A DNA stretch of 64,000 nt from a gamma proteobacterium symbiont of Taylorina sp. Its GTDB lineage: Bacteria > Pseudomonadota > Gammaproteobacteria > GRL18. The position numbers and the translations under genes were made by a program. The stretch spans positions 181,264 through 245,263 of the forward strand of contig JAHXIV010000013.1 of assembly GCA_025655455.1 (NCBI GenBank), read 5' to 3'. The notes under the pieces are model-generated. The model had not been told where the DNA came from, did no database searches, and was given only the letters and a program-made list of their open reading frames with translations. Below, piece by piece: positions 35,638 through 56,364 of the stretch. Within the stretch, counting starts at the first letter, position 1. The number at the start of each line of letters is the position of its first letter.

Positions 35638-35815
35638 ACCTCTTGAGTAACAAAAAATTGGCACAAATAATTTTAAGCCATTTTAATGTTACTAAAAATA
35701 ATTCGTGCCAATTTATTTGGCTGCGGGCACTTCTAAGTAACAAAAATGTGTCCTCCATCATTTATAGAAATTTTATGTTACTACAAATGATGTTGGCTGA
35801 AGACTCTTGAAGAAT
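35638..35815. repeat. Hairpin-array repeat, copy 1 (inverted relative to copy 2)
   Basis: Alternating AGTAAC/GTTACT motifs at 35646, 35688, 35736, 35777; 35644-35720 nearly identical to the reverse complement of 55980-56056. Confidence 0.88.
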
Positions 35816-55865: not shown

Positions 55866-56135
55866 AAGTTACTTAGAAGCCTTTAGCCAAACTTGAACTT
55901 GGCCACCATCATTTATAGTAACATTAAATTTCTACTAAATGATGGTGGAAAAATTTAAGTTACTTAGAAGTGCCCACAGCCAAAAAAATTGGCACGAATT
56001 ATTATTAGTAACATTAAAATGGCTTAAAATTATTTGTGCCAATTTTTTGTTACTCAAGAGTCTTTAACCCAAAAATAAATTTTTTGTCCTGAATCTAAAA
56101 AAATCAAGGACTTAAGGTTTTGTTATCCAAGAGCC
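55866..56135. repeat. Hairpin-array repeat, copy 2
   Basis: GTTACT/AGTAAC alternate at 55868, 55917, 55959, 56007, 56049 (spacing 49/42/48/42); perfect 13-bp stem ccaccatcattta/taaatgatggtgg (55903-55915/55936-55948); second stem aaaaaattggcac..gtgccaatttttt; weaker third unit to ~56135. Confidence 0.88.
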
Positions 56136-56300
56136 GTCATAATATTCTATTTTGTCTATTAATAAAAGAACTTGTATTGCTTACATCCTGTACAACAACG
56201 TGATAGTAATTTAATCATCAGTTTTTTAGAACACTATTATCGATTATTTTAATTATATTTTATCAGAAAACTCTTCTATGATTTGTCTTGTGGTAACCAA

Positions 56301-56336
56301 GTTAAAACAAAAGTTAAAACAAAAGTTAAAACAAAA
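56301..56336. repeat. Three tandem copies of a 12-bp repeat upstream of the rubrerythrin gene
   Basis: (gttaaaacaaaa)x3, 29 bp before the start codon. Confidence 0.95.
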
Positions 56337-56364
56337 ATTAAATCTTATTTTGGAGGATTAACTC

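Follow-up and report, generated by a model that had tools for sequence, protein, structure and literature searches.

The Y1 HUH transposases of the IS200/IS605 elements cleave DNA 3' of a short target, and this target remains as the left flank of the inserted element. The palindrome-associated transposable elements (PATEs) of Haloquadratum walsbyi are linked to IS605-type elements with similar ends (PMC3119063). In addition, the REP/BIME palindromes, moved by RAYT (TnpAREP), are thought to move as single strands (PMC8266576, PMC3733652, PMC2817692). Here we describe a hairpin array located in a 64,000-nt stretch of DNA, which as a whole is referred to as the window. With moderate confidence, we interpret the array as a cluster of ~90-nt non-autonomous mobile elements, moved as folded single-stranded DNA in an IS200/IS605-like (PATE-like) manner.

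The hairpin arrays in the window

The array comprises three copies, arranged head-to-tail, of a hairpin repeat of ~90 nt that is dispersed in the genome, namely unit A, unit B and a decayed third unit (Table 1). The alternation of GTTACT and AGTAAC with a spacing of 49/42/48/42 nt, described in an earlier note on this DNA, is reproduced, and the linker and loop motifs are conserved as first described. Long inverted repeats with 26-nt arms of 85% complementarity are located at 55890-55915/55936-55961 and 55983-56008/56023-56048. On either strand, none of 200 shuffled sequences folds as well as the array region, and the window contains the pattern AGTAACN{20,50}GTTACTYARRAG four times, where 0 occurrences are expected. 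The description as an array of hairpins holds for two good units but not for the decayed third, whose folding is not above that of shuffled sequences (z = +0.79). Just 5' of the rubrerythrin gene, a 12-bp tandem repeat, AAGTTAAAACAA, is present in 3.7 copies (window 56299-56342).

Table 1 Features of the arrays, the dispersed family and the RAYT genes. Coordinates without a prefix are positions in the window.
Feature	Location	Strand	Remarks
Upstream flank	55868..55879	+	GTTACTTAGAAG; abuts the 5' side of unit A; host target or remnant end of a lost unit
Unit A	55880..55970	+	Covariance-model match, E = 3.8e-13; left end CCTTTAGCC; stem CACCATCATTTA; loop AGTAACAT; right end GTTACTTAGAAG at 55959-55970
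Unit B	55971..56060	+	Covariance-model match, E = 2.3e-13; left end TGCCCACAGCC; stem AAAAAATTGGCACGAATTATT; loop AGTAACAT; right end GTTACTCAAGAG at 56049-56060
Third unit, decayed	56061..56133	+	Left end TCTTTAACC; right end GTTATCCAAGAG; short stem; AGTAAC loop absent
Second array, A-type unit	35730..35803	-	Internal deletion of the outer stem; E = 7.9e-8
Second array, B-type unit	35640..35729	-	Stem same as 55971-56060; E = 3.4e-13
Unit at folP-glmM	L298; G000:C1:185502-185589		3' end supplies the end of folP
Fused A-left/B-right units	L018:991-1080, L063:1464-1554, L289:1500-1591, L301:1504-1575		
~40-nt loop hairpin	L001:1552-1591, L022:1552-1591, L023:1551-1590, L089:1804-1843, L344:860-900, L141:3008-3046		CACAGGATAAGGTAGAGTAAGAAACAGCAACTCTACCTAA
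RAYT1	L200:1006-1848	-	280-aa RAYT-like protein with C-terminal HTH; orthologues L222-L240
RAYT2	L199:1177-1869	-	230 aa; HUH intact; flanked by palindromic GGGGTCAGAGTAAAATTAT repeats

A second array (35640-35803, minus strand) carries both stems of the array at 55880-56060, in the same order. The stems of A and B differ, yet they recur as a pair, indicating that A and B represent two subfamilies and that no covariation exists between neighbouring units. The earlier note had taken the fixed linkers with different stems as a covariation-like signature. This interpretation fails for adjacent units, between which there is no compensatory change, but such change is real inside subfamily A, where it exceeds a shuffle control. 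Moreover, the array does sit between the OxyR-like and rubrerythrin genes, but this setting is incidental, as the locus is not conserved and the rubrerythrin gene has no adjacent LysR gene in three of three relatives checked.

The dispersed family and its target preference

The covariance model, built from 34 units and run on the genome of origin (4.5 Mb) with 150 candidates scored, gives 92 matches, a few of which are antisense matches to the same palindromes, so that at least ~89 units are present. BLAST and pattern searches find dozens of copies in this genome, the pattern matching 48 times and its reversed form 0 times. In four sister species, the model matches at least 37, 25, 17 and 15 times, and in other congeners it gives few matches or none. 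Outside the genus, one weak model match is found among 15 genomes, the exact pattern occurs once each in two genomes (one occurrence is probably due to chance), and one further unit is present in a sister genus (locus L238). The lack of further copies in relatives, or stems conserved no better than chance, had been named beforehand as evidence against a selected structure; tens of copies are present in sister species, and the stems of subfamily A rise above the shuffle control. Phage and plasmid records contain no unit match, and none of 16 pattern matches in viral contigs is unit-like by profile. In a pattern scan of genome contigs, the matches listed are mostly due to chance, and the profile-confirmed units among them lie in gammaproteobacterial records with one exception, labelled Neomarinimicrobiota, which is probably a binning error. 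Replication-strand bias of the units, assessed with 3-kb flanks, is not significant.

Units occur singly or in A-B, B-A, B-B, B-C and A-A-A-A arrays. Some units are fusions, with a left half of A type and a right half of B type meeting at the AGTAAC loop, a product that deletion between the repeated loops of A-B arrays would be expected to yield. In addition, units of both subfamilies from at least two species harbor a ~40-nt hairpin at one fixed position of the loop, which may be a different repeat inserting into the units or another version of the loop.

The sites are intergenic and the genes beside the ~90 copies are unrelated, which argues against a protein-binding array, for example one of operators for the neighbouring OxyR-like regulator. 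Such an array would agree with the regular inverted GTTACT/AGTAAC spacing beside a LysR-type gene, and with the units of genome G009, in which loop and end shift jointly (AATAAC with GTTATT). Given also that the locus is not conserved and that operators can function without extended paired stems and strand-specific wobble pairs in them, we find a protein-binding role scarcely credible.

The ends of the family are fixed, with CCTTCAGCC, TGCCCACAGCC or TCCTTAACC on the left and GTTACTYARRAG on the right. Units occupy four core junctions in this genome (iscS-iscU, folP-glmM, tilS-pyrG and ispA-dxs), each of which is present without a unit in 8-10 relatives. The sequence to the left of the unit at iscS-iscU, CATTAGAAG, includes the iscS stop codon, and one relative has CATTAGAA there, demonstrating that the flank left of the unit is host DNA. 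At folP-glmM, the last codons and the stop codon of folP are now derived from the 3' end of the unit. No target duplication is visible at the four filled junctions, in a comparison with relatives whose sequences have diverged too far to be matched base by base. Clear terminal inverted repeats are likewise not seen (ends CCTTCAGCC / TGCCCACAGCC versus ACTYARRAG), with a weak partial match in A units. As far as they go, both observations disfavour DDE-type MITEs, short inverted-repeat elements that are cut and pasted as double-stranded DNA. The units share with MITEs their small size, palindromic form, intergenic location and high copy number, and their ends show weak inverted similarity (CTTC...). 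Strand-specific wobble retention, described below, has no role in a double-stranded mechanism, and we regard a MITE origin as very unlikely.

The left flank of the units reads approximately TTAYTYARRAG and resembles the unit's own right end, GTTACTYARRAG. Among the 68 A- and B-type units without a recognised unit on their left, the flank terminates in AG in 65 and has T at position -7 in 62. A-type left ends are preferentially found behind AAGAG, and B-type left ends preferentially behind TTAGAAG, TTATAAG or TTAAAAG (p = 4e-7, position -3). The right ends are reversed, being mostly TAGAAG in A and CAAGAG in B (p = 3e-10). Moreover, mixed units, in which the left end is of type A and the right end is B-like, have targets that differ from those of the pure B units (8 versus 23 units, p = 0.008), suggesting that target choice goes with the left end; these target statistics come from a small sample, in which related insertions are non-independent and part of the flanks may derive from units since lost. 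No guide sequence pairing with the cleavage site was recognised by eye.

Strand-specific folding

For the stem count, the two arms of each unit were aligned and G.T and A.C were scored alike, with the fixed ends left out. In the stems, a restriction chosen after the count including the fixed ends had been seen, G.T outnumbers A.C by 191 to 23 on one strand, and by 76 to 19 when distinct contexts are counted (p = 3e-9). Per unit, 85 units have more G.T and 2 have more A.C. The bias is present in the genome of origin and, counted separately, in the other genomes. With the fixed ends counted, the numbers are 337 and 212 (contexts, 188 and 129), and this weaker bias results from an invariant AGCC/GTTACT mismatch in the ends. 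The large excess of G.T over A.C on one strand indicates that this strand folds, although strand-biased cytosine deamination may contribute to it. The strand keeping the wobble pairs is the one with the target on the left, as in the top strands of IS200/IS605.

Folding as RNA would leave an equal signature. The units could accordingly be structured RNAs or cis-acting transcript elements, such as terminators, stabilisers or processing sites, with selection acting on the folded RNA. This reading predicts G.T (G.U) retention and compensatory changes equally well, and it agrees with a slight excess of units sense to both flanking genes (39, against 23 opposite to both). Those 23 sites nevertheless oppose both neighbours, and a further 21 lie between divergent genes (5 lie between convergent ones). 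An Rfam scan of the window gives 0 matches above the gathering score. In addition, the units have a defined insertion target, the same junctions are empty in relatives, and the locus in the window is not conserved. Taken together, an RNA element appears distinctly improbable. The free orientation relative to genes, combined with the target rule, favours DNA over RNA as the folding molecule, and we infer that the units fold as DNA.

Candidate enzymes, proposed mechanism and known systems

A cognate transposase carrying the ends of the units, for which a search had been proposed, was not found among the Y1/TnpB loci examined in the genus. At the examined loci, neither the Y1-family genes, here and across the genus, nor the TnpB fragment present here are bracketed by units, and the TnpB loci fetched contain no unit. 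No RAYT gene at the loci examined is flanked by units, and only at L238 does a unit lie ~1.3 kb upstream of a RAYT gene.

Three candidate genes were rejected. RAYT1 was considered in view of AAAGAGCCTTCAG, located immediately 5' of the gene in this genome. It is mostly single-copy, its orthologues (62-70% identity, in the genus and a sister genus) are conserved also in species without detected units, and its HUH motif is lost throughout the group, being replaced by S[YF]Q in most members, with His in place of the tyrosine in this genus. Judged by these residues, RAYT1 resembles a transposase that has been retained after losing its catalytic activity. RAYT2 is flanked by palindromes of a different kind, the GGGGTCAGAGTAAAATTAT repeats, which probably represent its own REP family. 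The IS200 TnpA has its own end hairpins.

Three readings of the array had been proposed earlier, a structured RNA, a protein-binding array and a mobile element folding as a single strand. The third agrees best with the data and the other two are disfavoured, in view of the ~90 dispersed copies, the junctions empty in relatives, the target resembling the unit's own 3' end, and the strand-specific folding. The units have probably spread through the genome by jumping as folded single strands. An enzyme working like the Y1 HUH transposases of IS200/IS605 would excise the folded strand and insert it elsewhere. Since the right end of every unit is a good target, the next unit may land directly behind it. 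In particular, the preferred target of A is AAGAG, the end of B, and that of B is TTAGAAG, the end of A, so that A-B arrays would accumulate. Recombination at the repeated ends and loops, by deletion or fusion, would later remodel the arrays. Both the step of array growth and the mobilising enzyme are what we infer from the features described above. The mechanism is IS200/IS605-like in its working; membership in IS200/IS605 is not claimed, because units do not bracket any of the Y1 or TnpB genes examined.

The same mobile elements could instead be moved by another machine, either a tyrosine recombinase, of the integron type or another, that recognises attC-like folded sites, or an IS91- or IS110-like enzyme. 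Integron attC sites are likewise recombined as a folded single strand in a strand-specific manner, with free stem sequence and in tandem arrays, and the genome contains 33 phage-integrase matches. The boxes of attC (RYYYAAC / GTTRRRY) are however unmatched, as the right end of the units is GTTACTY and the left ends of A and B lack RYYYAAC. Moreover, no cassette genes lie between the sites, units are scattered singly across the chromosome, and the one integrase locus scored (L204) reaches 53 bits against the TIGR02249 integron-integrase cut-off of 265. We consider another machine rather unlikely.

As a tentative extension of this mechanism, A and B may constitute a mutually targeting pair of minimal, gene-free hairpins, in which the left end of each selects the terminal sequence of the other. 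Together they would form ordered A-B arrays and depend on an enzyme for single-strand transposition that has so far not been connected with elements of this kind. If the mobile-element reading is true, the units form a genus-wide, gene-free family that moves as single strands with a readable target code, providing a natural data set on target choice by the left end. In addition, the count of G.T versus A.C offers a simple test for the folding strand that needs nothing beyond sequence and is usable on other palindromic repeats of obscure origin. For annotation, the family accounts for hairpin arrays that would otherwise be mistaken for regulatory RNA.

Among known systems, PATEs are, like the units, short, gene-free, palindromic near their ends and present in many copies; they have no terminal inverted repeats or target duplication, neither of which is clearly seen in the units (PMC3119063). 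In contrast to PATEs, the units have no IS605-type parent with shared ends among the Y1/TnpB loci fetched in the genus, and each of them is a single long hairpin; they also line up head-to-tail in arrays and fall into two subfamilies with reciprocal preference of end and target. The units resemble IS200/IS605, as exemplified by IS608 (PMC5934647), in that insertion occurs 3' of a short target kept on the left, one strand folds, and target choice is associated with the left end. They differ from IS608 in lacking a transposase gene, in having a target longer and looser than a tetranucleotide, and in possessing one hairpin, whereas IS608 has one per end; guides are not recognised in the units. 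REP/BIME share with the units the dispersed intergenic palindromes, the ~100 copies and the clustering (PMC8266576, PMC3733652, PMC2817692). The units are longer, however (~90 nt, against 20-40 for REP), lack a GTAG or CGTC tag at the foot (ends CCTTCAGCC / TGCCCACAGCC), are arranged head-to-tail rather than alternating, and flank no RAYT gene at the loci examined.
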